From Microthrixaceae bacterium (GTDB taxonomy: Bacteria; Actinomycetota; Acidimicrobiia; Acidimicrobiales; Poriferisodalaceae), in the NCBI GenBank assembly GCA_011523825.1, contig WTFX01000017.1, positions 1 through 64,000 on the forward strand: DNA of 64,000 bases, written 5' to 3'. A model generated the notes under the pieces. That model searched no databases. It was not told the DNA's origin and was given only the letters and a program-made list of their open reading frames with translations. This document shows positions 14,842 through 32,988 of this stretch, piece after piece. The position numbers and the translations under genes are program-made. Position 1 is the first letter of the stretch, and every line of letters begins with the position of its first letter.

Positions 14842-14912
14842 ACTATCTGGTTGACATCCTCTAGGCGAATGGGCCAATGCGCCCGAGAATGATGAGTGCC
14901 GAGGATCACTAG

Positions 14913-15668
14913 TTACCCGAATTCGATCAGTCGCCTGACGGGGCTAGGTAGCAGCCTGTGGGTGTGTGTCGCGTTCACGATGTCGCCGAGGGTTCGCCAC
15001 GTGCACTTTCGGATCGTCTCAGTGCTGAGGTTGTGGACGCGTGCAAGCGCTGTTTCGACTCGTGCGATTTCGCCAGGTCGTCGAGGACCCCGGCCCTTGT
15101 CCCCAAAAGGATGATCTGTTTCCGGCAGTACGCGGTCAAGCGGGATCTGTGCCAGAAGATCCCTGCGACGAACCGACGACGCGTTCACCGAGAAGTAGCA
15201 GCCGAGGTCGAGGGCGCGATCCGTCTCGCTGTCTGTGCCTAGCCACCAGTGGAGGATGAGGCCAGGCTGCGGGCACTCTGCGATCACGTCTAGGAGTTGA
15301 TTCGTAGCCATGTAGCTGTGCAGAGAGGTGATGCGCGGGCTTTGCTGGAGCACGCTCAGCGCTCGGGCAAGGGTGAACTGTTGTATCTCCAGTGAAACTC
15401 GAGATGCTCCGTCGAGCCCCAGTTCGCCTGCGTAGGGCGTCCTGCCGACGAGCTCGCGAAAGCGGCCCGAGTCGAAGCTCTTCTGCGCCCTGACGAGGCC
15501 GGGGTGGCATCCGACTCCCCAAATCGTGGTTTCATCGGATCGTTCGAGCGCCTGCTCGGCTTCATCAAGCGATCGGGTAACGGCGAATACGACAGCTCCC
15601 AACGATCGCAATTCGCGAGCCTCGATTCCCGCGTCGATGTGTGCGTGAAGGTCCAGAGGAGGAAGCAC
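14913..15668 (-). CDS. qatD: QatD, TatD-family nuclease of the Qat defense system
   Basis: This 251-residue TatD-like metal-dependent hydrolase shows the metal-binding residues: DLHAH at residues 6-10, GCHPG, the Glu in AGELGLDG, SLHSYM and the terminal ETDHPFGD. TatD proteins are DNases; in the Qat anti-phage system QatD is the fourth component. The GTG start is two bases after the qatC stop (TAACCGTG), so it is translated from the same mRNA. It is the last gene of the operon. It is not the housekeeping TatD, given its position. Confidence 0.9.
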   Translation of the reverse strand: MLPPLDLHAHIDAGIEARELRSLGAVVFAVTRSLDEAEQALERSDETTIWGVGCHPGLVRAQKSFDSGRFRELVGRTPYAGELGLDGASRVSLEIQQFTLARALSVLQQSPRITSLHSYMATNQLLDVIAECPQPGLILHWWLGTDSETDRALDLGCYFSVNASSVRRRDLLAQIPLDRVLPETDHPFGDKGRGPRRPGEIARVETALARVHNLSTETIRKCTWRTLGDIVNATHTHRLLPSPVRRLIEFG

Positions 15669-15670
15669 GG

Positions 15671-16969
15671 TTAGAGAACGTATGCCCGCAACTCGCTCAC
15701 ACCACGCTCCAAGAGACCTTGCGCATCCTCGAGCGGGTAGTCATCCGGGAGGCTCATCGTCAAGAGATCTCGTCGGGCAATGCCTCTCTTGACAAATCTC
15801 CGCATGTCCGGGAGCACAGAGTTGACGTTGAGCCACGTGGCGAGTTCGTGGGAGTGGGCCGGGTCCGCGTATTCGGTCATATCGGTGAGACCTGCAGACG
15901 CAAACGAAGCACGTCGCACTACGCATCCGAAGCAGACCCCGCACTGCCTTGTGGTGGAAATGCCCTTGGAGCGCTGTCCCGTGAGCCCGCACGAATGTGT
16001 GCCACTCAAGAAGCCACTGATCTCGAGGTATCCGAACTGGTCCGCCGCGGCGCGGAACATCTCCCCCTTGGTCAGGCACGAGAACGGGTTGAAGATTGTC
16101 GAGTGAGCACCGAGTTCCCCGAGGATTCGCGAGAGCCCCTCAAGAAACGCCGGATGAGTAGTCCGCGTCGAGAGACTGCCACGTCGGTTCGGAGCTAGCG
16201 GCGGATTGAGTGATGCAAAGCCATTCTCGGCGATCCACAGCGGGACTGCATGCATCGACGCATACGCGAGGCCGAGCGCCAGGAAGAGAAGTGAGCGGGA
16301 TCGGGTCGAGGTCTCGCTCTTGAATCTTGACCCATCGACTTGATATCGCCGTCGGACCAAGTAAGTCTGCTCGTGAAGTTGTTGCGGCCCAGGGCAAATC
16401 GCCGTCGCGGCATCGGCAACCCTGCGCTGCAACGGAGCCAGCGCCTTCAAACCGAAGTGCGAGACGAGCACATGACACTCCGTCGGGTCAAGTTGACGCC
16501 GAGACTCAAGCGCACCCAGAGCGGAATCAGCACCACCGCTCATCAGCACCACTCGCGAGGGGTGTGAGATGTCCAGCCGTGAGTCCACCTGCTCCCGTGG
16601 TGGTCGTGTGTTCTTGAACTCCACCGACCACGCGTCGCCGGTGAGAAACGCGAGCAAGCCGCACAGCTCCGCGGCAACCGCATTCCACGACGTTGCATCA
16701 GAAACGGGGACGGTCAGAGATATGTCTCTGCTCGACCAATTCGTAGAGCCGACCTCTCGAATCGTCGATCGGTCGGCCGCATACACGAGCATGGCAAGTC
16801 GCACTAGGTCCACATTGAGTCGAGGCACGGCGCCGATGGCAGCGAGGCGGGGACCGAACGGAACGCTGAAGCTCGAGGGGCCGTTCACCGGCCAATAGAA
16901 CATCGCAAGCGGGTCATCGCGGCTGCTCGTAGATCGGGTGGTCAGCTTCAATTCATAGTGATGAGTCAT
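15671..16969 (-). CDS. qatC: QatC, QueC-like component of the Qat defense system
   Basis: This 432-residue protein has a PP-loop ATP pyrophosphatase motif SGGADS at residues 144-149. A four-Cys zinc site (Cys327, Cys343, Cys346, Cys349) matches QueC, the 7-cyano-7-deazaguanine synthase. An extra N-terminal domain of about 130 residues distinguishes Qat-type proteins from plain QueC. It presumably modifies or adenylates a target using a QueC-like reaction; the actual substrate in Qat is not settled. Its ATG overlaps the qatB stop as ATGA. Confidence 0.9.
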   Translation of the reverse strand: MTHHYELKLTTRSTSSRDDPLAMFYWPVNGPSSFSVPFGPRLAAIGAVPRLNVDLVRLAMLVYAADRSTIREVGSTNWSSRDISLTVPVSDATSWNAVAAELCGLLAFLTGDAWSVEFKNTRPPREQVDSRLDISHPSRVVLMSGGADSALGALESRRQLDPTECHVLVSHFGLKALAPLQRRVADAATAICPGPQQLHEQTYLVRRRYQVDGSRFKSETSTRSRSLLFLALGLAYASMHAVPLWIAENGFASLNPPLAPNRRGSLSTRTTHPAFLEGLSRILGELGAHSTIFNPFSCLTKGEMFRAAADQFGYLEISGFLSGTHSCGLTGQRSKGISTTRQCGVCFGCVVRRASFASAGLTDMTEYADPAHSHELATWLNVNSVLPDMRRFVKRGIARRDLLTMSLPDDYPLEDAQGLLERGVSELRAYVL

Positions 16970-17781
16970 GACGCCCCCACATAGATCGGGCGCAAGCTCT
17001 CTATCCCCTGCTCGATGGCCGCGGCCAGCTCCTCCGCCGACGGACCGGAGCTACTCAATTTGGCCTTGTTAGCGAGGACGGATGCCGCCGCCCGTAGCTC
17101 GTCTTCGGCCACGTCAGCAACTTCGTCTGGGCGACTACGAAGCGCTTCACCTAGCTCCGATGAGAGCACCTCAGTGACGATCGTGGCGATCACGTACCGG
17201 ACGATGTCATCAGCGTCGAGCGGCTCCCCGTCTGCACCTTGGGCCAGGACCCAATCGGCGACCGTAGCGGCGACGTACCGCTCTTCGGCTTCTTCCAGGC
17301 GGCCATTGGATTGCTTGCCGCAAACAGCATCGACGATTCGACGCGCCACCTCGAAGCCATCATCCAGTGCGCGGAGCTCGCCGTAGTCGAGGCCCAAGCC
17401 GGCCAGCTGTTCCGCGTCCCCGCGGATGTATGCGAGGGCACCTGCAGCAGCCCGTGCTCCGGCGGATGCGAGCCGCTGCGATGACCTGCCCGAACCCGCA
17501 CGAGTGCGGCCCGTTCCACGCGACCCGCCGCTACCGCCGGCAGGCCCGTCACTCGATCCGCCTCCTGCGGACCGAGGCCGGAGCAAACTCAGAAGTCCGC
17601 TTACTGCTTGGGGTGGCAGTTGTGTGACGGATTCATCCTCAGCTCCCGTCTCACCGTTACTCGGAGTGTCCCCATCGCTGCCAGAGCCGTCTGGCAGCGA
17701 GTCGAGCCAGTCGTTGAGGCCGTTGCTGATGTCCTTGCCAGCCTTGCCGCCAGCGCCTGTGTACGCACCGCTTGTGCCCAT
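16966..17781 (-). CDS. qatB: QatB component of the Qat defense system
   Basis: This 271-residue protein starts with MGTSGAYTGAGGKAG, a Ser/Gly-rich leader characteristic of QatB proteins. A Gly/Ser/Arg-rich linker (about 70-110) and then a helical domain (about 115-270) follow. No enzymatic motif is seen, in line with the family. The start codon shares its A with the qatA stop (TGATG), so it is strictly coupled to the ATPase gene. Identification rests on the N-terminal signature plus exact gene order A-B-C-D. Confidence 0.85.
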   Translation of the reverse strand: MGTSGAYTGAGGKAGKDISNGLNDWLDSLPDGSGSDGDTPSNGETGAEDESVTQLPPQAVSGLLSLLRPRSAGGGSSDGPAGGSGGSRGTGRTRAGSGRSSQRLASAGARAAAGALAYIRGDAEQLAGLGLDYGELRALDDGFEVARRIVDAVCGKQSNGRLEEAEERYVAATVADWVLAQGADGEPLDADDIVRYVIATIVTEVLSSELGEALRSRPDEVADVAEDELRAAASVLANKAKLSSSGPSAEELAAAIEQGIESLRPIYVGAS

Positions 17782-19670
17782 CAGTTCGCAACTCTCGACT
17801 CAAGTTGCTGCGCGATGGCCCTCTTGACGCTCGGCTCAGCGGCTCTCGCGTCCCAGTGCTCAAGAACGTCGCGATAGGTGACAGCGTCTCCCTCGTCGAA
17901 CAAGAGGATCACGGGAGCTCGAATCTCTTGTGCGGGAATTGTTCGAAAGGCGGCCATCGCTGCCTGGTTGGCATCAGTGAGCCTCGCAACACGCAAGATT
18001 GCACTGACGCTTGCGATGAGGTCACCGGGACGGTCCCGGGCCATTCGGCCAAGGTGTTCGATCAGTGCACTCACATCCGCAGTTGTGAGGCCCCGGATGT
18101 CGGCATCAGTGACGGATTTCTGGGCGGCGCGACTCGACGACAGCAGGTTCGCCGCGACATCTCTGAGCCGCTCGGGCAGTTCCGAATCGATGAGGGGGAG
18201 ACTGGCGAATGACGCCGCTAGGTGCAGATACGGACTCAGGTCGATGCTGTCGAGCGACGGCTGCAGTTTGGCCCAGCGAAGGAGGTTCTCGTTAAAGGGC
18301 TCGCTCTCAGCGCTCGATTCATCGTGGACGGGCACCGCGTCTCGGTGCCGAGAACCGCTCCCTGCAGCTGTCGCGTCCTGCTCTTTGGCATCCGCAGATT
18401 TCTTTGGAGACGCGGACCGCCCTGCGGCTTCTTCCAGCTGAGACAACTGCTGGCGCAGCTCGCCCCGGGCGAGCCAATCGAGGACCATGTCGAATTCGTC
18501 CGGCAGCAGCAATTCCAGCACCATGAGCTTGGCCACGACGGCGACATCGAGCTCGATGCCGCGACGCTCGGCAATAGATGAGCGGACGCTGAGGTCGTTC
18601 AGGAACCTCTTGACGCGTCGCGGGTTACCGCGAAGCTTCTCGTAGAGGATTGGCGTCAGCCGTGAAGCGAACTGCATCTCGCCTGAGAGGTCGAGGCCCT
18701 TCGGGATGCTGATCGAATCAATTGACCCCGCTGCTACACGCAGCTCAGTGCATCCCTTGAGAATCTGATCGAACTGCGCTTGGGTCAACTGACTCGCTGC
18801 CCGGCGCTGTAGGAGCAACAGCAGCAAGTACGCCTCCGTGTCGAACCGGCTCAGCGTAGGAAGGCGAAGTGTCGTCTGCACGATCTTGTGCAAGTAGAGG
18901 CGGGCCGGTTCCTCTGCGTCTCCATTAGGTCCATTGGCACGGTCATAGCGATCCCTCAAGGCGTCCGCTACGCGGTCCTCGTCGGCCGCAATGACAAAGG
19001 ACATCTTTGGGACTGACAGGAACAGCCGCATCGTCTCAAGCGTCTCGACGACTGTGTCAGGCAGACAGCGGTCGAGGTCATCGACAAGGACCACGACCCT
19101 TCGCAGATGGCCAAGATGGACGTCCGCGAGAAGCTTCGCAAACTCTGCCCGGAACTCGTCCAAGTTCCTCGGCTCGGGTCGGCCTTCCTCGTCTTCGCTG
19201 TTGATGAGGTCCGTCAGATCGTCGATTCGAGGAAGCTGAAGGGCGATGGAGGAACGAGCGGCGAGCTTGAGCGCCTTAGTCCAGTTCACCCGCGCCACCA
19301 ACCTCTTCAGGGCGTCTCGCGCCGCACCATCCTCGCGGCCCTGATCCTCAAGCTCGTTGGTCAAGGCGTTGAGAATCTCAAGTATCAACGTTGCCTTGGC
19401 ACCGACATCAGGGTCGTACCGCCAAGGTTCAGTCTCGACGACGAGGACTTGCTCGTCTGTATCAGAGTCCGGGAGGGCAACCAGCTTTGCCTTGATCAGG
19501 TTTAGGACCGTGCTCTTGCCGCTGCCCCACGACCCGGAGATGCCGATCGCCACCGGATCGAGTGCGTCATCCAAGACTGCTTCCACCGCCGTGTCTGCAA
19601 CTGCATCAAACGCGAGAAGATCCACCGGTGACGGCTCATCGGACCAAAGCTGCACTGGCATGCTGCTCAT
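17781..19670 (-). CDS. qatA: QatA, KAP-type P-loop ATPase of the Qat defense system
   Basis: This 629-residue NTPase has Walker A in ISGSWGSGKST (ending residue 54) and Walker B RVVVLVDDLDRC at about 191-202, the KAP family pattern. The middle holds long helices with KAP-like RVKRFLNDLSVRS near residue 360. The region around 420-450 is a Lys/Ala/Ser-rich linker. It is the first gene of the four-gene operon. It probably powers or senses during phage infection; the mechanism is unknown. Start ATG 19670. Confidence 0.9.
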   Translation of the reverse strand: MSSMPVQLWSDEPSPVDLLAFDAVADTAVEAVLDDALDPVAIGISGSWGSGKSTVLNLIKAKLVALPDSDTDEQVLVVETEPWRYDPDVGAKATLILEILNALTNELEDQGREDGAARDALKRLVARVNWTKALKLAARSSIALQLPRIDDLTDLINSEDEEGRPEPRNLDEFRAEFAKLLADVHLGHLRRVVVLVDDLDRCLPDTVVETLETMRLFLSVPKMSFVIAADEDRVADALRDRYDRANGPNGDAEEPARLYLHKIVQTTLRLPTLSRFDTEAYLLLLLLQRRAASQLTQAQFDQILKGCTELRVAAGSIDSISIPKGLDLSGEMQFASRLTPILYEKLRGNPRRVKRFLNDLSVRSSIAERRGIELDVAVVAKLMVLELLLPDEFDMVLDWLARGELRQQLSQLEEAAGRSASPKKSADAKEQDATAAGSGSRHRDAVPVHDESSAESEPFNENLLRWAKLQPSLDSIDLSPYLHLAASFASLPLIDSELPERLRDVAANLLSSSRAAQKSVTDADIRGLTTADVSALIEHLGRMARDRPGDLIASVSAILRVARLTDANQAAMAAFRTIPAQEIRAPVILLFDEGDAVTYRDVLEHWDARAAEPSVKRAIAQQLESRVAN

Positions 19671-20515
19671 TTGACAGATTCCACCCGTGTGTCGACACGC
19701 TGGTGACGGGACCAGGACGAGAGAATGGCCCCATCGCCAGGACCTGCTGCGGCCAACCGGCCACAGCGACTACGCGAGCGGTCCAAACTACAAATATGTT
19801 CTTCCGGTCGCTACAGAACTAGGTGCGGGCCCCCGGTTCGGAACGTTTGAGCGACGGCGCAGCACAGCACGCGAGTTCGACGGCTAATCCCGTACGGCAC
19901 CGATCTGGTCGCTAGCTCAGATGCCACGGCTGCAGCCCTGCTACGCATCCGAGGCGGGGCGCTTCCGCGATGCAACGGCGCCCTAGTGGCTAGCCACCGA
20001 ACTCGCAGGCGCGACTCGAACCGGCTTGGCTCTGGCTGCAATCCTCGTCAGCCGGATTCGTCAAGTGCCCACGGTGATCGAGACGCTGCTACAGATCGTG
20101 TGAAGCCTGCCCTCTCACTCCCTCGATGGCCCTTGCGGTAGGCAACCTCGTGTTGGTCACCAACCCTTCTCCATGCGGTGCGCTCAGCCCCCAACTGGTA
20201 AGTGCCGCCTGATGAAGCAGCGGCAATCGCTGATCACCGAGACCTCGACATCATGTGCAATGTGACGACATCGCGAAACTATTTGAATGCTCTACCCGGC
20301 GCTTCGGCAGCCACCGCCGCATTCGGGTTCGTCGGCTTGACTCGAATGGCCAACTTGCCTGTGTCGCGCGATGCCAGGCGATACGCGCGAGCCCTGGGCG
20401 GATGCGACCTGTCTCGAATGCTGCAGCGGACGTGCCGCTGCCCGCAAGCTTGTCCACCTACGCGTGGTCGTGCTCGAATCCGCTGCTGCCGGTACCGCTA
20501 CAGGCGGCCATCGGT
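19671..20515. other. 845-base stretch with no supported gene
   Basis: This separates qatA (reading away) from the next minus-strand gene. It must hold the qat promoter. Reading frames here are short, lack ribosome sites and match nothing I know. A T-arm-like GGTTCGAGTCGCG on the minus strand near 20010-20025 has no pairing stem. Confidence 0.5.
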
Positions 20516-21508
20516 TCAGAAGGCACTAGTTCGCTCCACATGGGCGGGTTCGTTCCAGTGATCTCGAGTGCACGCGTCAATCAACTCCATGCATTCGTTG
20601 GCGCTCTCAATCGGGTAGCTGCGCTTCCAGTAGTGCCCCATTCGCCAGAAGGTGTCCGACATCATCATCAGTGCGCACCCGAGGGGCATCAGTAGTTGCT
20701 CGACTCCGATGCTGCGCCGCCCGCGAGCATCTGCTGCACCGACATCCGCTCGATGCCACATCTTGTCCATGATTAGCGACTCGGAGTGCACTGAAGCGCT
20801 GAGCATTTCGTACATCGGAAGCGGTCCCAGATCGTTCTGGCCGAGGTGCTCACGAGCGATGCGCTCAATCTGCGAATCCACAGCTCGGGTCGCGTTGGGG
20901 ATCTTCCTGCATGCCTTGGCATTGGCCATCGAGTGTGTTTGGGCGACAACTTGTTCCGCTCGCGCGATCTCCGCCGATGATTCATCTACGCGTTGCTTGA
21001 GCCTCGTGTGCTCGGCCTCTGCCTGTGTCCGCTGTGAGACCGACCGTTCGCTGCGCGACAAATCCTGTTCAGATCGGCCACTCATCTTGACCCAAGTCGA
21101 GTGAGCGTCCCGAAGTGCTCTCAGGAGACGCTCCTCGGTGCTAAGGACCGGTTCGCAGTGCCAATCCAGCAGCGCAATCGATTCGGCCGCGATCCGAGCG
21201 AGCGCTTGTACACCAAATCTGGAGCTAGATGCCATTAGCGCCGGAAATGCGGTCATGTAGTCGACGGCGACGGTTGCTCGCTGGTAGACGACGCGAGTCA
21301 CCAGATCAGATAGCTGGTACTTGCGCGAGGCATCAAGCGTGACGCGTTCGACAGCCCGGTGCAAGACATCGATGCCTCCTACGCGCTCAAGCGGCTCTCG
21401 CACACTGAGCGAGACGCCCGCGAGCAACTCAGAGAGGCTGCGGGCGATGGGTTGCAGACAGGGGTGAAAATCCTCGTTGTCGCGGTCTTCCAACCAGGGA
21501 TTGCGCAC
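20516..21508 (-). CDS. Unknown protein with central coiled coil
   Basis: This 330-residue cytoplasmic protein has no recognised family. It has an N-terminal helical region, a stretch around residues 110-190 rich in Arg, Glu and Ser with heptad-like spacing (SRSERSVSQRTQAEAEHTRL) that suggests a coiled coil, and a C-terminal helical part with conserved-looking PLPMYEMLSASVHSESLIMD and YWKRSYPIESANECM. The His-Ser-Glu segment recalls uncharacterised DUF5677-like proteins, without certainty. It lies between two defense loci, so a defense role is possible by location only. Confidence 0.65.
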   Translation of the reverse strand: MRNPWLEDRDNEDFHPCLQPIARSLSELLAGVSLSVREPLERVGGIDVLHRAVERVTLDASRKYQLSDLVTRVVYQRATVAVDYMTAFPALMASSSRFGVQALARIAAESIALLDWHCEPVLSTEERLLRALRDAHSTWVKMSGRSEQDLSRSERSVSQRTQAEAEHTRLKQRVDESSAEIARAEQVVAQTHSMANAKACRKIPNATRAVDSQIERIAREHLGQNDLGPLPMYEMLSASVHSESLIMDKMWHRADVGAADARGRRSIGVEQLLMPLGCALMMMSDTFWRMGHYWKRSYPIESANECMELIDACTRDHWNEPAHVERTSAF

Positions 21509-22218
21509 GACGACTCGCCGATTAGTGGCTGTCCGATTCGAGACCGATGTCTACCTCGACCGTGAGTCCCGCCCGCGTGTTGCCGTTAGGCAGCTGTGTT
21601 GCCGGCGCCCGAACGCCGGAATCGACCCGCGTGGTCCGGCCGCCGAGATAGCTACAGCTCGGCGCGTGCCTAAGGAACAGCGCGGCGGTGCATTCACGCT
21701 TCTTGAGGGCAGCATCGCGGCTCGCGATCTCGGGCGGCCCAGAATCAGTCACCCGGCCAGTCTTGCGCGCTGAAGCTGCCTCCGATCGGAATTGGCGACG
21801 TGTGCTCAGTTGCTTAGGGGCCTTTCACAGGCGTACACGGTCAGAGACTTCGCTTGAGTGCAGATAGCCCAATAGCTTGAAGACGGCCCCATGGTCGGAT
21901 TCCAAAATCCAATCGCTTGTGCTTGAGCGACCTCAGCATCGAATTGCCATGCGACGTTTACACGTCGTTCGACGATCCGAGCTGCCACCCGACACTGCAA
22001 CCAGCCGCCTAGGACCACACCACCAGACGGCGTGGAGCCCAGTGCGGTTCAGTTCAAACCGATGTGGGCCCAGCGGGTGCCACCGCGCGAGACGAGAGCT
22101 TGCAACTGTCCAACTGGCCGCATGGGCACTGAGAATTCGCGTTCGGCGGTCGGATAGTCACACGCGTGGCATTTACTGCGGGAGGACACAGGGATTCTCG
22201 CTCTAGAAGGGAGCGCCA
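21509..22218. other. 710-base stretch with no supported gene
   Basis: No frame has a ribosome site, a family match or convincing codon use. The last bases contain the AGAAGGGAG ribosome site of the DUF2188 gene and presumably its promoter. Confidence 0.5.
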
Positions 22219-22443
22219 ATGAGCAAGCGACCCGTACATACCGTGCCCCACGGCGATGGCTGGGCGAACCGGCGAGCCGGTTCAGACCGGGTTGCCAAGA
22301 CATTTCCCACCAAGGCCGAAGCTCAAGCCGCTGGTCGCAACACCGCTCGGCATGAGCACACAGAGCACATCATCCATCGGAAGGACGGCACGATTGGCGA
22401 GCGCAACAGCTACGGCAACGATCCCTATCCGCCGAGGGGCTGA
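22219..22443 (+). CDS. DUF2188 family small protein
   Basis: This 74-residue protein has the family's layout: HTVPHGDGWANRRAGSDRVA, FPTKAEAQAAGRNTARHEHTEHIIHRKDGTI. It would be a small beta-beta-alpha domain that may bind nucleic acid; the function is unproven. A strong AGAAGGGAG precedes the ATG. It is followed 66 bases later by a membrane protein and then a TIR-like gene, all on the plus strand, and could be part of that cassette. Confidence 0.8.
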   Translation: MSKRPVHTVPHGDGWANRRAGSDRVAKTFPTKAEAQAAGRNTARHEHTEHIIHRKDGTIGERNSYGNDPYPPRG

Positions 22444-22509
22444 CGCCGGCGCACCAGCGGTCAACCGAGGACGGGTGAGTCGTCTCGACGCGCCTACCGG
22501 GGCGACGAA

Positions 22510-22923
22510 GTGACGAGCGCGAGCGATAGGCACATCCACCTGCAGATGATCCAGGGCACCATCTCGCGCTTGGCGAATCAGAGCGCAAGTGTCAAGCGCT
22601 GGTACATGGTCGCTTGGGCAGCTCTGATCGCGTTCGCCCTATCGGGCAACCAACCTGCACAGGGACAGCCAGCGTGGTTGCTCGCGGCCCTGCCCCTGGC
22701 CCTCGGCCTGACTGCAGGCACGATCGATGGGCTCTACCTGTGGCAAGAGAGGCGCTTTCGGACCTTGTACGACTATGCGCGCAGGCAGGACACCACGGGA
22801 TTCAGCATGAAGCTCCGTCCGATGAACGGCAGCGACACGCCGCTCCGCAGTCTGCTCTCTTGGTCCGTGCTGCCGTTCTACTTGCCATTGATGGGGCTGC
22901 ACGTCGTAGTTGTGGCTGCCTAG
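22510..22923 (+). CDS. Small membrane protein paired with a TIR-like gene
   Basis: This 137-residue protein has a cytoplasmic N-terminal helix (LQMIQGTISRLANQSASVKR), two close membrane spans (about 31-46 and 54-77), a cytoplasmic segment with WQERRFRTLYDYARRQ, and a third hydrophobic segment at the C-terminus (about 115-137). The pattern MIQ-x3-I-x-RLA-x-S-x3-K-x-W followed by two helices is what I recall for small membrane partners of TIR-like MTH538/ThsB proteins. The start is GTG 22510, or ATG 22546. It is separated from the TIR-like gene by 23 bases. Confidence 0.7.
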   Translation: MTSASDRHIHLQMIQGTISRLANQSASVKRWYMVAWAALIAFALSGNQPAQGQPAWLLAALPLALGLTAGTIDGLYLWQERRFRTLYDYARRQDTTGFSMKLRPMNGSDTPLRSLLSWSVLPFYLPLMGLHVVVVAA

Positions 22924-22946
22924 CGGAGCAGAAAGGGAATCCGGAT

Positions 22947-23423
22947 ATGGCGTACCGCAGCGTGTTTTTCAGCTTCGACTGGGATCAGGACGTGTGGCGA
23001 GCGATGGTGGTTCGCAATTGCGGCGTCACTCTCGGAGTCAACGCCGCTGGCTTCAGGGATGCCGCCGAAATCGAGGCGGTGAAGTATCGGAGCGACGAGG
23101 CCATCAAGCACTGGATCGACTCCCAACTCAATGGCACGACCGTGACGGTGGTGCTTCTGGGGGCCCTGACCCACCAGAGCAGATGGGTGAAGTACGAATG
23201 CGACGCGAGCATCGCCCGAGGCAACGGCATCATCTTCATCGACATCAGCGGCATCGCTGACCAGTACCGCCGTACGACCACCTACGGCGGCATGCCGACC
23301 GGATGGCCGGAGCCTTCTCCCTATTCGCCAGGCCCGTATCTGTTCCGTCAGTGGGACACACAGCTCAGCCCACAACAGTTCGGTACATGGATTGAGCAAG
23401 CCGCGCAGAACGTCGGCAAGTAG
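22947..23423 (+). CDS. TIR-like (MTH538/ThsB, DUF1863) protein
   Basis: This 158-residue protein has the fold signature of ThsB-like TIR relatives. The opening YRSVFFSFDWDQDVWRAMVV is followed by a helix with the IKHWIDSQLNGTTVTVVLLG strand, SRWVKYECDASIARGNGIIF and the late IDIS strand. Related ThsB proteins make NAD-derived signals during phage infection and others work as effectors; no ThsA-like effector is adjacent here. GAAAGGGA precedes the ATG. The upstream membrane protein is the natural partner. Confidence 0.85.
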   Translation: MAYRSVFFSFDWDQDVWRAMVVRNCGVTLGVNAAGFRDAAEIEAVKYRSDEAIKHWIDSQLNGTTVTVVLLGALTHQSRWVKYECDASIARGNGIIFIDISGIADQYRRTTTYGGMPTGWPEPSPYSPGPYLFRQWDTQLSPQQFGTWIEQAAQNVGK

Positions 23424-23630
23424 CGGTGGCCAAGGACGGTTGCGCTAGCCGCTTGAACAGCCACCAACACCGGGATTCGCATCGTTGCCGCGTCGCGGTC
23501 TCGCCTCCAGCGCCAAGACGGCTCAGGTCCAAATCGTCGGCTCAGTAGGCGTTCCGGCCTGCAAGAAATTCAGGGGCCAGATCACACGGGTGTCACTTAC
23601 AATCGCGCCCCCGAGTGAGTCAGGCGTGTG

Positions 23631-26600
23631 ATGGGCAGGAAGAGCCGGGCGAAGCGTGAGCGTCGAGAACAGGGAGCGGGACCGGTAGCACGCGTCGTAC
23701 GCGGCCACACTCGAGAGTCGTTGCTAGCGATTCTCGAAGCAGCCAGCGTCTCCCCTAACGCGAGCCAGTATCTCCCTTCGTTGGCTGTCGCTTATGAGGC
23801 TCTTGCTCGAAGCAGTAGCACCGGCGAGAACCCAGCAGACCCTCACGCCCTGCAAGCCCTCATCACGGCCGCACACGAGGAGTGCCCGTCGGTCGTCGGG
23901 CTGGAGGACTTCTTGCCTCACGATCCTCGGATCGACGTGCGGGTCGAGTGGGCCGGCGAGATGTTCAGAATGGTCGCTGGAACCGTAGAGAGGCCGACCT
24001 CGAACATTGAGTCGCTTCGACGGCTATCGACAGTCATCGACCCGGTGTTGCACGCGCACACCGAATACGGCTTGACCGATGTGGTCGAGCTGGTATTGCG
24101 ACGCATCGATGCCGTAGCAACAGCGCTAGCCCCTGCTTGGTCTCCTGAGATAGTGCAAGAAAACGGTTCGCCGCCTCAGCTCCTAGCGGCGGAGGTGGCC
24201 GCTGCATCCCTCCTGCCGCCCTTCGAGGACCAGATAGCTCAGTGCGGCAGCCCAGAGCGCGCAAGAGCGGCCCTAGAAGCCCACTCGACGCCGGCCAAGC
24301 AGTTACGCCGCGACGGAGAACGGATGACGGCCAGCTTCGGCGACGTGCTCGCGACTCGGCACGGCCAACAAGGACTTACTCCGTTACCTGCAGGCCTCAT
24401 CGCGGAGGCACTCAGTCCGATTGCGGCGGCTCTCGCCGACAGAGCTGTCGCATTCGACCCAGCCCTCGACGAGACATGGCGAAGGGCGGTATGGCAGTAC
24501 GTCGGCACGGCGCTCCTCGGAGCGGGCAACAACGTCATCGGTCCGATGCGTGACAACCGACATCCTCATCTGCATTCAGTCGTCCGCTACAGCGATTCTC
24601 AGTATCTGGCGGTCAGCGTCGCTACGGCGTTGGGTGGCGTGACACTGCAAGCCAACGTCGAGGCCGCTTCCCGCTGCTTGGCAGCGGTGACGCCTAGCAG
24701 CGCACTGCGGACAGTCCAAGGACCAGTGACGATTCCGGCCTCCGCGCAGCTCTGCCGCTTACTGCTTATTGCGCAGCCACTTGACGCCATGCTCCAAGCA
24801 AGGATCGAGGCGAGTTGCGCAACGATCACGCTGCAGGACTTCGACTGGATTCGAAGCACCGACGGGCGCGACTTGATCGACCTGTGGTACTTCGTCCGCG
24901 ACTGCATTGAGCCGCGAAATGTCGGTCACATCTTCTCGTCGGAGGTGATTGACAAGTGGGAGACCTGGAAGAGCCAGGGCAAGTCGTTCTACACCGGTGC
25001 CCACGAGCTCGGGGGCATGCTCATCGCGCCGGGTCACTCGCTGCTCGAATGGCAGCTGGCGTCGGAACACCGAGACATCGAATCGGCTCTCCGAACTCTG
25101 GGCATGGTCCGTGTCGCCGAGTGGCCTTGGCACAGCCTCGACGGTGACACGAAGCTCGTCGGAATCGCGCACGCAGGTGTGCTGTACCGATTGGTCATGT
25201 GCGAGACACCAGTCGCCGTGGCGCTCTATGCCACCTCGGGAGCCGAGCCACTATCCGAATTGGCCTACAGGCTGGGCAACGGCGTCGCATACAAGCTGGA
25301 GCAGGTGCAGGATCGTCTCGTTGCCCTGATGCAGGCCGGCGGTCTTAAGTCGCTTCGGATCGAGTTCGCACTCGAAGCCGAACAGGAATCGCCGCTGCAG
25401 GTGGTGATTGCTGGCGACAGTGTCCTCACGGTGAGCTGCGCGCCGAATCTGTGGCAGTTACTCCAGGAGGACTCGCGGTCCGTCGAAGAGCAGTTTGGCG
25501 CCCTGCTGGCTGATGCAATCGCAGGCGACGCCGCTTCCGAAGAATTCGCTAGGGCATGGAGTGACGCACCCCCGGGCATTCGAGTCGACGCCATCACCGT
25601 CGGCCCGCAGATCCAACAGACGCCCGAAGCGAAGCCCCTCCACGAATCCCACCGAAGCGCACGCCTGGCAGAACTTGGCGGGCATCTTGAAGCGAACGGC
25701 ATCGAACCGCGCACCTACGACGGCGACGAGGCCAAACGGCTTGAGACCGACACGATCTATCCATGGCTGATCGCACGGCTTCACGAGGAGCTGGCTCCAT
25801 TCGACCGCGGTGCTGTCCTCAGACTTGCCTTGACGCAGCTCGAGCACACCAATTCCCAGCGATGGTGGAATCTCGAGGCGACCGCTTACCAAGTCTGGTC
25901 ACCACGCGAGAACGACGAACGCTTCCATGAGACGAGCCAAGAATCGCTGAATCAATCGCGCATCATCGGCCTGATCGTCGAAGAGGTTCTGGCACGGCCT
26001 CCGGGCGGCAGCAGAACACCAACGGAATACGAATGGCAAGAGCTGCTCAGCTTCGCGACGCTCGCCGGAGAGTCCAGTGCCCGCAGCGAGGTGCTCCATC
26101 GAGATTTGGCGAGTCCCGCGCTCGTTGTCACTGACCTCTACCAGGTGACGGTCGACGAAGACGACATAACCACCTCTGTCGATCTTGGATCATTCGCTCG
26201 GGATCACCGGTTGGCGGGACTGCCCGAAGCCAAGCCAATCGGGGGCACGACTGAAGACCACGAGTCAGACCAGCAATGGGCTCCCTTTGGTGAGCGCCTG
26301 CCGGCGTATGCAGGCATCGAACAGGCGCTCCAAGAATCGCTCGGCTTCGGCTTCGACACCATCCTGGTCATCTTGGATGTCATCATCCGTTGGCCGGTTT
26401 CTACGCCGCAATGCACGGAGCTCGTACCTCCACTGCAACTCGCGGTAGCAGCTCACGATGCCCGACCAGAGATTCCCATTGCTGACTATGAGGCAGCCGT
26501 GGCATGGCTGGGCCTCACCGCCGAAGAACTGGCATCAGCAGGCTCAACGATCAAGCACTGGGAAGTCGAACGGAGGTGGGCGCGCGTCGCCGTGCGGCCA

Positions 26601-27212
26601 CTCATCCGAGACAAATCCAGCGTCTGGGTGCTTCCGTGGACCTCCGAAGTCGCGAGAAGAGCGTGGCTCACATACCTGTCACAGCTTCGCTTGCCGATAC
26701 CGGATGTTGATTTGCCGGCTCCCGTGGTCAGAGCTCTTGAGGCCGCGCGGCGTAAGCAGAATCGCGAATTCGAAGACGAGTGCCTCAACGAGCTAGCCGA
26801 TCTGTCCCTGCTGAACATCTCTCGGGTGCGAGAGCGTGACGCCTACCGACACGGGATAAGCCACCTCAGCGGCGAGATCGACATTCTCTGCATCGACGCT
26901 GAACGCTCGCTCATCTTCGTCATCGAAGCTAAGGACCGCTTCGTGCCGCTGAGCGCCCGGACCATGCATCAGCAGATCACCCAGTTTCACAAAGCAGGTG
27001 GTGATGTGGACAAGCTCGATCAGAAAGTGCAAGACATCCAAGGGTCAGCAACAACTCTCGCGGCCAACAAAGGAATCAAGCGACCAGATCGCGAATGGCA
27101 GGTCGAAGGCATCATGGTGACCCGCCACATGACGCCTGCGGCCTACATGAGGGAGTGCCCCACCACCTTCTGCACCGTCGACACACTCCGTGAAACCGTT
27201 GTCGGCCACTAG
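23631..27212 (+). CDS. Giant unknown protein ending in a PD-(D/E)XK nuclease motif
   Basis: This protein of about 1194 residues starts at ATG 23631 (or GTG 23628). It opens with a basic tail (MGRKSRAKRERR) and has roughly 1000 residues of helical, repeat-poor sequence that I cannot assign. A C-terminal nuclease-like domain follows. There, GEIDILCIDAERS then FVIEAKD gives Asp about 1085 and Glu-x-Lys about 1100-1102, the catalytic layout of restriction-endonuclease-like enzymes; a downstream Gln/Lys-rich helix (QQITQFHKAGGDVDKLDQK) fits the fold. TACAAT at 23598 is a possible -10 box. It is flanked by a TIR-like cassette and a restriction-modification pair, so it is a candidate defense nuclease. 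Confidence 0.75.
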   Translation: MGRKSRAKRERREQGAGPVARVVRGHTRESLLAILEAASVSPNASQYLPSLAVAYEALARSSSTGENPADPHALQALITAAHEECPSVVGLEDFLPHDPRIDVRVEWAGEMFRMVAGTVERPTSNIESLRRLSTVIDPVLHAHTEYGLTDVVELVLRRIDAVATALAPAWSPEIVQENGSPPQLLAAEVAAASLLPPFEDQIAQCGSPERARAALEAHSTPAKQLRRDGERMTASFGDVLATRHGQQGLTPLPAGLIAEALSPIAAALADRAVAFDPALDETWRRAVWQYVGTALLGAGNNVIGPMRDNRHPHLHSVVRYSDSQYLAVSVATALGGVTLQANVEAASRCLAAVTPSSALRTVQGPVTIPASAQLCRLLLIAQPLDAMLQARIEASCATITLQDFDWIRSTDGRDLIDLWYFVRDCIEPRNVGHIFSSEVIDKWETWKSQGKSFYTGAHELGGMLIAPGHSLLEWQLASEHRDIESALRTLGMVRVAEWPWHSLDGDTKLVGIAHAGVLYRLVMCETPVAVALYATSGAEPLSELAYRLGNGVAYKLEQVQDRLVALMQAGGLKSLRIEFALEAEQESPLQVVIAGDSVLTVSCAPNLWQLLQEDSRSVEEQFGALLADAIAGDAASEEFARAWSDAPPGIRVDAITVGPQIQQTPEAKPLHESHRSARLAELGGHLEANGIEPRTYDGDEAKRLETDTIYPWLIARLHEELAPFDRGAVLRLALTQLEHTNSQRWWNLEATAYQVWSPRENDERFHETSQESLNQSRIIGLIVEEVLARPPGGSRTPTEYEWQELLSFATLAGESSARSEVLHRDLASPALVVTDLYQVTVDEDDITTSVDLGSFARDHRLAGLPEAKPIGGTTEDHESDQQWAPFGERLPAYAGIEQALQESLGFGFDTILVILDVIIRWPVSTPQCTELVPPLQLAVAAHDARPEIPIADYEAAVAWLGLTAEELASAGSTIKHWEVERRWARVAVRPLIRDKSSVWVLPWTSEVARRAWLTYLSQLRLPIPDVDLPAPVVRALEAARRKQNREFEDECLNELADLSLLNISRVRERDAYRHGISHLSGEIDILCIDAERSLIFVIEAKDRFVPLSARTMHQQITQFHKAGGDVDKLDQKVQDIQGSATTLAANKGIKRPDREWQVEGIMVTRHMTPAAYMRECPTTFCTVDTLRETVVGH

Positions 27213-27462
27213 CTTCCGCCAACCGAGGCCTCAGCGGCTTCGGCGCTGCGGATCTGTCCACCCCACGGACCGAACTTGGGCGGCTCGTGCGATGCGACTG
27301 CCCCTGCGACACTTCAATCGACGGAAATCCCTGGATGCACCCGCCCAGTCCCTGTCTGACCGCGAGACGAACCGAAGCAGCCCGGCGACGCACCATCAAC
27401 TGGCGAGTCACACCCGTTTGCGATGATGAAGCGATGGTTCCGCAGAGGATGAGGGCATAGCG

Positions 27463-28698
27463 GTGGGCGGAGAGTTCTTGACGAGCGCTGACCTTTTCGC
27501 CGGAGCTGGCGGGCTCACGCTTGGCTTGCAGCGGGCCGGTTTCGACACCGTCGTGGCCCTCGACAACTGGCACCCGGCTGTGGGCACCTTGGAACGCAAT
27601 TTCGGAGGGTCTCGCGTCTGTTCTCGGGACATACGCGAGCTGTCGGCATCGGACGTGCTTGCACGGACCGGTGGTGCAGTGCCGCTTCTGGTCGCCGGGG
27701 GACCTCCGTGTCAAGGATTCACCTCCGCTGGCGCTCGGCGTGCATCGGACCATCGCAACACACTCGTCGGCGAATTCGCGCGAATGGTGTCCGAACTGCG
27801 TCCGCAGTGGTTCCTGTTCGAGAATGTCGAGGGTTTCCTGACGATGTCGGGTGGTGACTTCCTTGTCGATCTGCTCGATGGTGTACTCGACGGTGGCTAT
27901 CGGATCAGGCTGCGCAAGGTAAACGTCGCCAACTACGGGGTGCCTCAGCTTCGCAAGCGGGTGATCGCAATTGGGTCGCTAGGTGTCGATCCTGGCTTCC
28001 CGGGTCCCTCTCATCATGCATTCGGTGCGCCAGGGGCGGAGATGGATTGCACTGCTGCACTGCCACTTGCGCCCACGGTTGCTGAGGCGCTCGGCCAGTT
28101 AGGCGAACCGGCCCTCACTACCCAGGATCAGGCGATTCAAGGACACTTGGCCTCAAGCGTCTCCGAGGCGGATCTTCGTCGCTTCCAGCTGTTGCGGCAG
28201 GGCCAGACGATGCGCGACCTTCCGAAAGAGCTCCAGCATCGAAGCTACGACAGAAGAGCCAATCGGCGGGTGGCGGACGGTATGCCGACAGAGCGGCGTG
28301 GTGGCGCGCCTGCCGGGCTTCGACGTCTTTGCGCTGATGAACCGTCGAAAGCGATAACCAGCGCGGCGAACCGAGAGTTTGTGCATCCTGTGGAGGATCG
28401 CTGCCTGACCCTGCGAGAGTGCGCTCGGCTTCAGGGGTTTCCTGACGACTTTCAGTTCGTTGGCAACCGAGCAGAGCAGGCGACGCTCATCGGCAACGCG
28501 ATCCCGCCGGCCTTCGGAGAGGTGTTCGGCAGGTGGGTGGACATGAGGACGAGTGTTCTGTCGTCGGGGACCGACGACTCGCCGCGACTCCTCGAGTTTC
28601 ACGTCACGAACGGAGCCGGCATCAGCCCGATCCTGCGCCAAGTAGTCGAACGAATCAATGCTCGCTATCAGATCGGGGAGGTGCCGCTGTGGCGCTGA
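27463..28698 (+). CDS. DNA cytosine-5 methyltransferase
   Basis: This 411-residue C5 methyltransferase transfers a methyl group from S-adenosylmethionine to cytosine in DNA. Motif I is DLFAGAGGLTLG (about 10-21). Motif IV is GGPPCQGF with catalytic Cys83. Motif VI is ENVEGF, motif VIII QLRKRVIAIG, motif IX region RECARLQGFPDDF and motif X LIGNAIPP. A C-terminal extension (about 370-411) follows motif X. The start is GTG 27463. The restriction gene overlaps its last codons, so it protects host DNA against that enzyme. Recognition sequence unknown. Confidence 0.93.
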   Translation: MGGEFLTSADLFAGAGGLTLGLQRAGFDTVVALDNWHPAVGTLERNFGGSRVCSRDIRELSASDVLARTGGAVPLLVAGGPPCQGFTSAGARRASDHRNTLVGEFARMVSELRPQWFLFENVEGFLTMSGGDFLVDLLDGVLDGGYRIRLRKVNVANYGVPQLRKRVIAIGSLGVDPGFPGPSHHAFGAPGAEMDCTAALPLAPTVAEALGQLGEPALTTQDQAIQGHLASSVSEADLRRFQLLRQGQTMRDLPKELQHRSYDRRANRRVADGMPTERRGGAPAGLRRLCADEPSKAITSAANREFVHPVEDRCLTLRECARLQGFPDDFQFVGNRAEQATLIGNAIPPAFGEVFGRWVDMRTSVLSSGTDDSPRLLEFHVTNGAGISPILRQVVERINARYQIGEVPLWR

Positions 28699-29744
28699 GC
28701 AAGACGCAGGCCACGGCGTTCGAGAAGGTGCGAAGGCGTGGGGCCGGCAATCAGGGCGTCTCGCTGAGCGAGAGCGCTGTGCGGGCACTCGTGGCGATCG
28801 TCGCCCGCGACCTCGAAATAGCACCGATTGCAGGAATCGATCCGTCAGATACCGGGGAGTTCTACGAGACCGCAGCCGACAGGCTTGAACTTGACGGGAA
28901 CGCGTCGGCGCAGAGCACATACGAGGCTCTTCTCGCTGCCGGTCCGCCAGACACGGAAATGTACTTCCTCTCGCTCGCCACTCTTCACCGGGCGCGATTG
29001 AAGTTCGCGAACATTCTGAGGCTTCAGGGCACTCCCTCGCTCGAACAGGTCGGGCCTCGAGGACTCCTGCAGTATGGAGACATCGAGACCGACTCACTGG
29101 GCTCACTCTTGATATTGCGCAAGTGGATGTTCGACATTGACAACCGCGCTGGTCAGGAAACCGGCTACCTGTTCGAGCCGGTAATCGCTGGTGCCGTCGG
29201 CGGCGCCCCGGTGTCTGCGAAGAAGAGCCCTGTCAAGAGAGACGGAACAGGATCAGGACGACAGGTCGATTGCCTGCGAGGCAACGATGCCTACGAGATC
29301 AAGATCCGCGTCACGATCGCCGCTTCGGGACAGGGACGATGGCAGGAGGAACTTGCGTTTCCCGCGGATTGCAGAATGAGCGACTACACGCCAGTGCTAG
29401 TGGTATTCGACGGCACCCCGAACGAGAAGCTCTTAGAGCTGAAGTCAGCTTTCGAACAATGTGGCGGACGAGCTCATGTCGGCGAGGACGCGTGGGCCCA
29501 TCTTGAAGAGGAAGCCGGGGACACGATGGGGCGGTTCATCGAGAAGTACATCCGTGCTCCCTTAGACGACCTTCTGGACAAGACACCGAGTGACCTGCCT
29601 GAGTTGAGACTACGACTGCAATCAGACCGCGTCGATCTCTATGTCGGGGCAACGCACTGGAACGTACTGAGAAATGGATCGGACCAATCGTCAAGCGACG
29701 AAATACCTGATGACGTCGACACGACGCTTCCCGGGCTGGACTAG
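28689..29744 (+). CDS. Type II restriction endonuclease (partner of the methyltransferase)
   Basis: This 351-residue protein starts at GTG 28689, overlapping the methyltransferase gene by 10 bases. The nuclease core is probably around GRQVDCLRGNDAYEIKIRVT: an Asp, then Glu-x-Lys, the PD-(D/E)XK pattern. It is followed by ASGQGRWQEELAFPADC, which looks like a conserved loop. An N-terminal helical part (about 1-160) could handle DNA recognition. I cannot name the specificity family with confidence. A hairpin terminator follows at 29809. Confidence 0.8.
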   Translation: MALSKTQATAFEKVRRRGAGNQGVSLSESAVRALVAIVARDLEIAPIAGIDPSDTGEFYETAADRLELDGNASAQSTYEALLAAGPPDTEMYFLSLATLHRARLKFANILRLQGTPSLEQVGPRGLLQYGDIETDSLGSLLILRKWMFDIDNRAGQETGYLFEPVIAGAVGGAPVSAKKSPVKRDGTGSGRQVDCLRGNDAYEIKIRVTIAASGQGRWQEELAFPADCRMSDYTPVLVVFDGTPNEKLLELKSAFEQCGGRAHVGEDAWAHLEEEAGDTMGRFIEKYIRAPLDDLLDKTPSDLPELRLRLQSDRVDLYVGATHWNVLRNGSDQSSSDEIPDDVDTTLPGLD

Positions 29745-29808
29745 CGATCTCGAACTGACCGCGTGAGGTTGTGCGCGCGTGGTGCCTCTGCGATGGCACC
29801 GGCGTCGC

Positions 29809-29836
29809 GACCGCCAAGTCGTTGACGCTTGGCGGT
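29809..29836 (+). terminator. Terminator after the restriction gene
   Basis: Arms GACCGCCAAG and CTTGGCGGTC pair over 10 bases around a 9-base loop, followed by TGTTCGT. It lies 64 bases after the restriction endonuclease stop. Confidence 0.55.
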
Positions 29837-29933
29837 CTGTTCGTCCGAGCGATCACGGAAATATTCCTAATCCGCGCGGCTGTTGTGGACGTCGACGCGC
29901 CCACGGTCCGTCAAATCGCCACGTCACCGACAG

Positions 29934-30161
29934 CTAGCGGCCCAACTGATGTGCGACGCGACAGGAGCCGGTGAACCTCACCGGCACAGAGTCGCCGCCG
30001 CAGATCAGGCCATCGATGTAGACGGTGAGCGTCTCGCGCATGTTGGCGAGCATCTCATCGCGGGTATCGGCAGTGCTAATGCATCCCGGGACGTCTGGCG
30101 CGCAGGTGCCGCAGTCGTGTGGCGGTATTCTGAGGGCATAACGCCCTGTGCGCTTCGTCGT
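29934..30161 (-). pseudogene. HicB-like antitoxin fragment without a start codon
   Basis: The minus-strand frame reads GRYALRIPPHDCGTCAPDVP then GCISTADTRDEMLANMRETL and TVYIDGLICGGDSVP, the core of HicB antitoxins (partial RNase H-like fold). The frame is closed upstream by TGA at 30164-30162, and no ATG, GTG or TTG lies before the conserved part; the stop is TAG at 29936-29934. It is a 5'-truncated relic next to an intact HicB-like gene. Confidence 0.6.
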
Positions 30162-30170
30162 TCAGGACCC

Positions 30171-30195
30171 GAGGTCCCTCCCTGTGAGGGACCTC
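30171..30195. terminator. Hairpin between two HicB-like loci
   Basis: Arms GAGGTCCCTC and GAGGGACCTC are perfect over 10 bases with loop CCTGT, then TGTCATTT on the plus strand. It sits 52 bases beyond the stop of the minus-strand HicB-like gene and may end its transcript. Confidence 0.5.
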
Positions 30196-30247
30196 TGTCA
30201 TTTCCGAACAGCTGGGCGGCTGACGGACCGTCTTGACGGCGATGGCC

Positions 30248-30487
30248 CTACTCGGCCAGCAGCCCAGCCTCACCCTGCTGCGGCTGCACATACACGTCGA
30301 TCGGGCCCACTTCAGCCGGATCGACGTCGAGCATCAGAGCAATCGCATCGCGAGCGACCTCCGGCACCTCATCGAGGTTCCTCGCTTGCGAGAAGACGCC
30401 CCGGAGCGAGGGAACCGTTATCGCCCACCAGTCGCCAGATCGCACGACTTCGACGCCATGTCCCAAGGTGCTCACATCAGATTTCAT
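30248..30487 (-). CDS. HicB-family antitoxin
   Basis: This 79-residue protein has the HicB pattern VEVVRSGDWWAITVPSLRGV, FSQARNLDEVPEVARDAIAL and MLDVDPAEVG. HicB binds and blocks the HicA mRNA-cleaving toxin. The start ATG overlaps the end of a decayed upstream frame as ATGA, the usual HicA-HicB coupling, but the HicA frame is broken. The intact antitoxin thus appears toxin-less. Confidence 0.7.
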   Translation of the reverse strand: MKSDVSTLGHGVEVVRSGDWWAITVPSLRGVFSQARNLDEVPEVARDAIALMLDVDPAEVGPIDVYVQPQQGEAGLLAE

Positions 30488-30600
30488 AGTTCAACCATCT
30501 TGCCAGCCTCCGCGAGGATGCCCCGGGGCGATCATCTAGCTCGCCAGGACGGTCGACTCGATGTGGGGTCGGTGCTTGGCCCACCAGGACCGGCGCACCC
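30484..30600 (-). pseudogene. Probable HicA toxin remnant
   Basis: Directly before the HicB-like gene, one minus-strand frame ends RGILAEAGKMVEL, the typical C-terminus of HicA, and its TGA overlaps the next ATG. Upstream the frame is closed by stops and shifts, and the HicA double-stranded-RNA-binding core with its catalytic His is not readable. Limits are approximate. Confidence 0.45.
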
Positions 30601-30664
30601 TCGAAGCCGGATCCCGAAATGGTCTTGCTCGACGCCCGCCGGCCTGGCCGAAGTTCGCGGGCCC

Positions 30665-31696
30665 TCAATTGACAGCGGCTTCGGCTTCTTGCAATCTCTC
30701 GTCGATCCATCCGAACTCGGGAGCTTCCCCGAGGACCATGCCTTGCATCGCCGCATAGTCCTGTTCGATCGCTTCCCGTAGCCCGGATTGCGGTACGAGT
30801 CTCAGCGAGCCGGGCGTGGCTTGTTCGAATCGCTTCCATGCCTGCCTGAATGCGACGAGGTTGTGGCTTCGAACCGCGTCGAGTAGCTCGAGGTCATTCA
30901 GGGCCGACGCTCCGATGTCTGTGGCCGTGATCATTGCGGCGTCGTAGTAGTGGCGCGAGATCCGGTTCCTGTCTTCGGGAAGACGTTGTTCGTCTCGATA
31001 GCCGCAATGCGCTCCGTGCAGAATCAGGAGCTTTTCCCAATAGGTCCGCCTCGGCGAAAGCACGTTGACGTTGCTGACATGGAGCGAGGAATCATGCAGG
31101 TCGTCGTCGATGAACGCGGTGACGCCGCCGGTTTGATTGGGGTCGAGGGCTGACTTAGCTCCCGCCTCGATCTTCACGCTCGGAGCCACATAGGCGGTGT
31201 CGCTGCTGGGGTAGAGCGTGGGGTATTCGACCAGGAGCGTCTGCGAATAGTCGCCGTCAGGAACGACGAGGCATCCTTCGGCAACCTTGCTGACTGCTCT
31301 CGTCAGCGCGGCACGAAAGTCACCGATGATGTAGCTGCCGCAGCGCTCAGTGAGCTGCTTGAAAAGCGCAGTTCGCTGATTCTTCGACAGGGATTCCGCC
31401 GCGATCGGGTCGCTGTCGCCCTCGATGCCAAGGTCGTCCCGGTACACGACGAGATCGATGTCTTCGGAGAACCGGTTGATCAAGCCGAAGACCTTCGACA
31501 GCGACGTTCCGCCCTTGAACAGCAGCCGAGGGTGCCCGTCAGGTAATCCGTTGAAGATTACGTCGAGGACGATGCAGACCCAGAGGTCCTTCTCCACGTA
31601 GCTGGGGAGCGTGTCGAGGCGAGCTGCGGCTGCTTCAAAGACGTCGCGCCGGTCTTGCTCACTGAACGTGAGGAATTCAGCGAATGCCTTGTTCAC
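30665..31696 (-). CDS. abiEii: AbiEii nucleotidyltransferase toxin
   Basis: This 343-residue AbiEii/AbiGii-type nucleotidyltransferase has LLFKGGTSLSKVFGLINRFS and EDIDLVV, the active-site Gly-Ser and Asp-x-Asp motifs. A later KxEAGAKS region and HYYDAAMI segment are typical of the family. Such toxins add nucleotides to tRNA or otherwise stop growth, giving phage abortive infection. Its GTG start overlaps the antitoxin stop (GTGA). It appears full length, so this AbiE pair may be functional. Confidence 0.9.
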   Translation of the reverse strand: MNKAFAEFLTFSEQDRRDVFEAAAARLDTLPSYVEKDLWVCIVLDVIFNGLPDGHPRLLFKGGTSLSKVFGLINRFSEDIDLVVYRDDLGIEGDSDPIAAESLSKNQRTALFKQLTERCGSYIIGDFRAALTRAVSKVAEGCLVVPDGDYSQTLLVEYPTLYPSSDTAYVAPSVKIEAGAKSALDPNQTGGVTAFIDDDLHDSSLHVSNVNVLSPRRTYWEKLLILHGAHCGYRDEQRLPEDRNRISRHYYDAAMITATDIGASALNDLELLDAVRSHNLVAFRQAWKRFEQATPGSLRLVPQSGLREAIEQDYAAMQGMVLGEAPEFGWIDERLQEAEAAVN

Positions 31697-32845: not shown

Positions 32846-32988
32846 GACTCACCTCGCATCGCGCGGTCAATTCTGACAGTCCCATTGCTCGGTGGTCCGA
32901 GGGGTTTTGGCGCTCGCTATATCTGAGATTCGCCAAGACGTCGCAGGCCGGGCAAGCTGGGCTGGGTCAGCGGGAGACGGGAGCATCC

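Follow-up and report, generated by a model that had tools for sequence, protein, structure and literature searches.

A conserved pair of a small membrane protein and a ThsB-type TIR protein, probably a Thoeris-like variant

The locus and its gene products

The window (the whole 64,000-nucleotide stretch analysed, from contig WTFX01000017.1 of a Microthrixaceae bacterium) carries three intact forward-strand genes: a DUF2188 gene, followed after 66 nt by a gene for a small membrane protein, which is in turn followed after 23 nt by a gene for a TIR protein. The positions and gaps given in an earlier note on this DNA were all reproduced. The last two genes form a module of ~0.9 kb.

22219–22443, + strand: DUF2188 protein, 74 aa, ATG start; PF09954, E 3.7e-21; PADLOC PDC-S16, E 2.4e-30
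22510–22923, + strand: membrane protein of the PDC-M50A family, predicted effector, 137 aa, GTG start; PADLOC PDLC04686, E 2.2e-21
22591–22641, + strand: span 1, residues 28–44 (hydropathy segment 28–47); helix 4–44 in the model
22666–22734, + strand: span 2, residues 53–75 by hydropathy; helix 55–92 in the model
22849–22920, + strand: span 3, residues 114–137 by hydropathy; helices 111–115 and 121–136 in the model
22947–23423, + strand: ThsB-type TIR protein (PDC-M50B), predicted NAD-using signal maker, 158 aa, ATG start; PF08937
23196–23198, + strand: codon of E84, predicted catalytic glutamate (motif WVKYE), placed by alignment column

The GTG start of the membrane gene falls on the same start residue in two close relatives, and the TIR reading frame is nested within a longer in-frame, TTG-started one listed from 22614. 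The identities that the earlier note had assigned also hold: Pfam places the first protein in DUF2188, the second has three hydrophobic segments that agree with its predicted model, and the third matches PF08937 (ThsB_TIR) above the cut-off (E 9.2e-19).

Compared with PADLOC-DB 2.0.0, the TIR protein matches the ThsB model PDLC00431 (E 1.5e-43) and the PDC-M50B model PDLC04688 (E 1e-35), and it aligns to the solved ThsB structures 9b7d and 6lhy (E 6e-19). A glutamate occupies the column of window residue E84 in all 86 entries of an alignment composed of the window protein, one duplicate and 84 partner TIRs lying within 150 nt of a membrane gene, the partial L078 and L088 sequences included. 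We take this column to hold the catalytic glutamate of TIR NADases, and its conservation in the alignment is compatible with ADPR-derived signalling.

For the membrane protein, no Pfam family reaches E ≤ 1, and no ligand-binding domain is recognizable. Its predicted model (mean pLDDT 89.5, pTM 0.80) consists of a long helical hairpin (residues 4–44 and 55–92) and a C-terminal helix, with the helix of span 2 extending to residue 92 and carrying the conserved D73, E80, R84 and Y87. In 112 membrane-protein sequences, W31, D73 and E80 are invariant and H10, R20, K29, L77, R84, Y87, F98 and M100 are, among others, nearly so; the window protein deviates at four near-invariant positions, having A26, R30, A69 and G70 where the family has F, G, F and W. 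Most of the conserved polar residues sit on the N-terminal side of the membrane, at its edge or beyond it (spans 28–47, 53–75 and 114–137). This side may be cytosolic and form a signal-sensing stalk, a placement supported by the HIT domain that some relatives carry fused at that end. A Foldseek search with the predicted model returned no significant fold match, and thus no structural indication of a 'pore'.

The earlier note had allowed that the membrane protein might be a lineage-specific orphan. This was ruled out by a profile search, which scored the 7994 candidates with the most shared words and yielded 877 related membrane proteins. Among the six nearest proteins, two are named Candidatus Poriferisodalis (identities 57 and 61%). 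The 8xMP family (PF24838) is matched by two of 15 family members (best E 0.0026), the window protein itself having no match to it at E ≤ 1.

As judged from its annotated genes, the window is a defence island. A Qat system, already named as a neighbour in the earlier note, lies on the reverse strand at 14913–19670; its QatD, QatC and QatA match PADLOC models, and the gene in the QatB position (16966–17781) matches none. Right behind the pair, on the forward strand, 23628–27212 encodes a 1194-aa protein that neither Pfam nor PADLOC matches at E ≤ 1. A C5 cytosine methyltransferase gene and a gene with a weak, below-cut-off match to an ApaLI-type endonuclease (E 0.003) follow at 27463–29744 (+), a probable type II restriction-modification pair, and an AbiEii toxin with an AbiEi/DUF6088 antitoxin is encoded at 30665–32493 (−).

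Conservation and mobility of the pair

One genome per species was scanned with a tight alignment of the membrane protein, which gave at least 496 relatives; of these, the 80 best loci, spanning many phyla, were selected solely by membrane-protein similarity. Profiles built from seven TIR seed sequences and iterated over the open reading frames of these loci located a TIR-like gene no more than 150 nt from the membrane gene in 66 of the 80. The two genes share a strand in 61 of these (the nearest TIR gene being downstream in 48 and upstream in 13) and converge in five. Of the 762 other genes that these loci contain, only 53 have a TIR gene within 150 nt, so the pairing exceeds chance. Membrane gene and TIR gene thus make up a conserved two-gene cassette; the earlier note had proposed a neighbourhood search for exactly this pairing, and its concern that homologues might rarely be adjacent is not borne out. 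Distances between membrane proteins and between their TIR partners correlate (r 0.21 over 53 pairs, a value reached in 3 of 2000 permutations), which agrees, weakly and with species descent as a confounder, with joint inheritance. PDC-M50A was found in nine of 396 genomes of the host phylum and in three of 11 of the host genus, the window's own genome included.

Two of the remaining loci have a TIR gene within 1.5 kb and 12 have no profile-detected TIR. In two loci (L021, L036) the contig ends just past the membrane gene. The TIR profile missed an adjoining CAP12-PCTIR_TIR gene in L040 and L090 (E 5e-29 and 5e-24) and an adjoining gene with a weak, below-cut-off TIR_2 match in L044 (E 9e-4); a TIR_2 protein is encoded two genes upstream in L076 (E 4e-8), and in L024 the second gene away, on the opposite strand, matches TIR_2 weakly. 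In L086 (5469–6414), a nucleoside 2-deoxyribosyltransferase-like gene (PF15891/Nuc_deoxyri_tr2, E 1.1e-19) replaces the TIR gene beside the membrane gene. No TIR family was found among the scanned neighbours of four loci whose contigs leave room on either side (L037, L045, L069 and L080); L037 is a type I restriction-modification locus.

Several loci depart from the simple tandem order. In five Poribacteria loci (L060, L064, L072, L075 and L078), a short ThsB-type TIR gene faces the membrane gene in convergent orientation. In eight others (L058, L059, L061, L070, L081, L082, L091 and L098) the membrane gene lies between two TIR genes, an arrangement resembling Thoeris loci with two ThsB genes. 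The membrane and TIR genes are interleaved with HMUDK_hel and Nmad2 in a locus of the host genus (L047; L100 looks like the same contig, both measuring 16,467 bases) and with DUF1599 (Nmad1) and Nmad2 in Apibacter (L066); such loci with nucleotide-modification genes are possibly a variant tied to modified phage bases.

The DUF2188 gene, which the earlier note had counted as a third member, behaves differently from the pair. Its shared strand and 66-nt gap, its separate standing as PADLOC candidate PDC-S16 and the failure to find a second DUF2188 in the genome would suit a three-gene unit with DUF2188 as regulator or ligand-binding partner. However, a profile seeded with the window gene alone matched, among 106 sequences (some with only ~1.5 kb of flank), only that gene and re-fetched copies of the window (L001, L006 and L019). 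With no DUF2188 beside the pair in any other examined locus, its role as a conserved third gene was rejected; we consider the three-gene unit very improbable and do not judge DUF2188, a neighbour, to be part of the system.

The pair is carried by mobile elements. All six plasmid records matching the window membrane protein have a TIR gene either next to the membrane gene or with just a HIT gene in between. A total of 123 plasmid records, the archaeon Halorhabdus among them, match a Vibrio homologue. Among 5,426 E. coli genomes, 23 carry one E. coli form, 17 on plasmids and six on chromosomes. Three Vibrio matches were found among 50,697 phage records; in one of the three, a tailless Vibrio phage element (L107, PQ189363.1), integrase, TIR gene and membrane gene stand consecutively at one end (178–2635), and the depositor had annotated the TIR protein as Thoeris ThsB. 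The flanks yielded 235 proteins of ≤1300 aa, of which 168 measured 120–480 aa; 148 were drawn at random and 132 scanned, the other 16 comprising eight that belonged to TIR families or were examined singly (one at L076:882–1904) and eight for which no reason is stated. N6_N4_Mtase was found in five of the 132, MvaI_BcnI, Methylase_S and SLOG cluster 3 in two each, and most other families once or twice. By these family matches the flanks carry a modest restriction-modification signal.

Such frequent plasmid carriage, together with a small membrane protein of a potentially toxic kind, could also fit a function unrelated to phage defence: envelope stress or a toxin–antitoxin-like plasmid maintenance, in which the TIR protein would restrain or report on the membrane protein. 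This is countered by the restriction-modification genes among the neighbours (the N6_N4_Mtase, MvaI_BcnI and Methylase_S matches), by one homologue that adjoins the DISARM gene drmD, by the defence island in the window itself, by the predicted catalytic residue that the TIR protein retains and by the patchy occurrence within the genus, and we regard it as improbable.

HIT fusions and the proposed signalling order

In Actinomycetota the membrane module is often fused to a HIT domain. The first searches revealed such fusions in Streptomyces (L008/L103, recognized through identity with P0125) and Rhodococcus (L012). A search that scored the L103 fusion by its membrane part alone retrieved 228 proteins; among the 120 of these that were listed, 109 have PF01230 with the HxHxH motif, and the other 11 (173–186 aa) have neither. 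One of the 11, P0126, begins at the end of the HIT domain, so that the choice of start codon may explain the HIT-less proteins. A TIR gene lies immediately upstream in all six plasmid records covering at least 80% of the Rhodococcus fusion query; five encode the fusion and one (Dietzia) has three separate genes in the order TIR–HIT–membrane, and two of the six plasmids come from one Mycolicibacterium strain with an identical TIR protein. The HIT parts of these relatives match the PADLOC ThsC model. A HIT profile found nothing in window positions 14001–34000 and nothing in the 80 genome loci, and the latter result marks HIT as a feature of an actinobacterial subset.

We consider it on balance likely that the conserved cassette is anti-phage, with the TIR protein making an NAD-derived signal upon which the membrane protein damages the cell's own membrane. 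Phage infection would activate the TIR protein, which would convert NAD to a small signal; the signal would cause the membrane protein to assemble or open, and in that state it would damage the membrane of its own cell. In fused forms, the HIT domain would be a receptor for the nucleotide signal or else, as an eraser, would break the signal down and so reset the system. The window form lacks HIT, and there the hairpin's conserved polar stalk would act as the receptor. All elements of this scheme are predicted: NAD chemistry, trigger and ligand as well as oligomerization, pore and membrane damage.

Two observations and one precedent argue for a TIR-made signal acting on the membrane protein. 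The partner enzymes are mostly ThsB_TIR, with CAP12-PCTIR_TIR in two loci and Nuc_deoxyri_tr2 in one. Since one membrane module thus pairs with several enzyme families of TIR or deoxyribosyltransferase type, the combination of varied enzymes and a constant membrane protein fits a shared output. A nucleotide signal is suggested by the HIT domain with intact histidines that is fused to the membrane module in Actinomycetota. The precedent is type II Thoeris, in which, according to the literature passages retrieved, a His-ADPR signal made by the TIR protein acts on a TM-macro effector.

The order of events could also be reversed, with the membrane protein sensing infection and the TIR protein acting as an effector NADase that empties the cell of NAD. 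Depletion of NAD by bacterial TIRs is possible, as passages of the SpbK paper indicate (PMC12847820); moreover, the long helices of the modelled membrane protein could scaffold TIR assembly, and the window form has no ligand domain by Pfam. However, a HIT domain with intact histidines fits a nucleotide ligand and not a membrane sensor, and one membrane protein combined with several enzyme families is better explained by a common output than by a common sensor. The evidence therefore favours a nucleotide signal passing from the TIR protein to the membrane protein more than a sensor in the membrane that activates a TIR NADase, and we consider the reversed order rather unlikely. Against the favoured scheme itself stand the window protein's lack of a recognizable ligand domain, its four deviant residues, the failure to find HIT in the 80 genome loci, the five convergent loci, the four loci in which no TIR neighbour was recognized, the weakness of the distance correlation and the absence of a significant fold match.

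TIR enzymes make different NAD-derived signals that serve different effectors. A tiny, widespread membrane partner that is fused to HIT in one phylum would offer a handle both on the identity of the signal and on how it is switched off, in a module that plasmids and a phage element carry.

Comparison with known systems

The earlier note had presented the cassette as new, which is only partly right: PADLOC-DB 2.0.0 already holds both proteins as candidate PDC-M50 (A and B), and passages of PMC8565338 and PMC9503650 contain related ideas. Judging by the model names, PDC-M50 consists of just these two components, and the window encodes both, matching PDLC04686 at E 2.2e-21 and PDLC04688 at E 1e-35 with genes separated by 23 nt. 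Both models are likewise matched in L103, the fusion locus of Streptomyces type, whereas the membrane proteins of the Vibrio phage and of E. coli match A while their TIRs match ThsB and not M50B. PDC-M50 is a catalogue entry without a mechanism, and in the features compared it does not differ from the window pair. A full-text literature search for 'PDC-M50', which most subscription papers lie outside, found no paper and hence no functional test. What is added here is the breadth of the pairing and the HIT–membrane fusion as a clue to the ligand.

The combination of a TIR with a small membrane effector was previously proposed for SLATT proteins: in Firmicute phages, according to passages of PMC9503650, a small 2TM neighbour of the TIR was predicted to be a membrane effector regulated by an ADPR derivative. 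The window pair resembles these TIR-SLATT neighbourhoods in that a TIR stands beside a small membrane protein. The sequence comparisons made could not link the two families: no SLATT model turned up when 15 family members were compared with Pfam at E ≤ 10, a search whose filters drop most weak matches, and hhalign against a single SLATT_1 sequence, a weak one-sequence profile, gave a probability of 0.1 (E 0.57).

ThsC, a HIT protein, is described in passages of PMC8565338 as an additional gene of Thoeris, for which the authors proposed an off-switch. PADLOC 'Thoeris type II' with ThsC resembles the actinobacterial relatives, in which a HIT protein also accompanies ThsB. In these relatives, however, HIT is fused to or stands beside the PDC-M50A membrane protein, and the window has no HIT; the HIT–membrane fusion is not described in the retrieved literature passages. 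The SpbK paper (PMC12847820) refers, in the passages retrieved, to 'type IV Thoeris' and to work in E. coli on 12 TIR systems, and one of these sources may already cover this pair. No paper on 'type III Thoeris' came up in the literature search.

In line with the earlier note, neither a SIR2-SLOG nor a TM-macro ThsA was found beside ThsB among the PADLOC-DB matches listed for 17 distinct window proteins, the DUF2188, membrane and TIR proteins included. A genome search with PF18185 (STALD) gave no match, the control genomes being silent too.

The pair is probably a real Thoeris-like variant, its function being predicted. In type II Thoeris, as described in the passages retrieved, the TIR protein makes His-ADPR, which causes the TM-macro effector to oligomerize; the window likewise pairs a ThsB-type TIR with a membrane effector, for which the same logic is proposed. 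Unlike the type II effector, the window membrane protein has only 137 aa and, with no Pfam match, no macro domain. More tentatively, the family may represent a further Thoeris class of bacteria and some archaea, in which a protein of 130–140 residues would be both receptor and pore for the TIR product and to which Actinomycetota would have fused HIT as a receptor or reset switch. If so, few signal-gated killing devices of bacterial immunity would be smaller.
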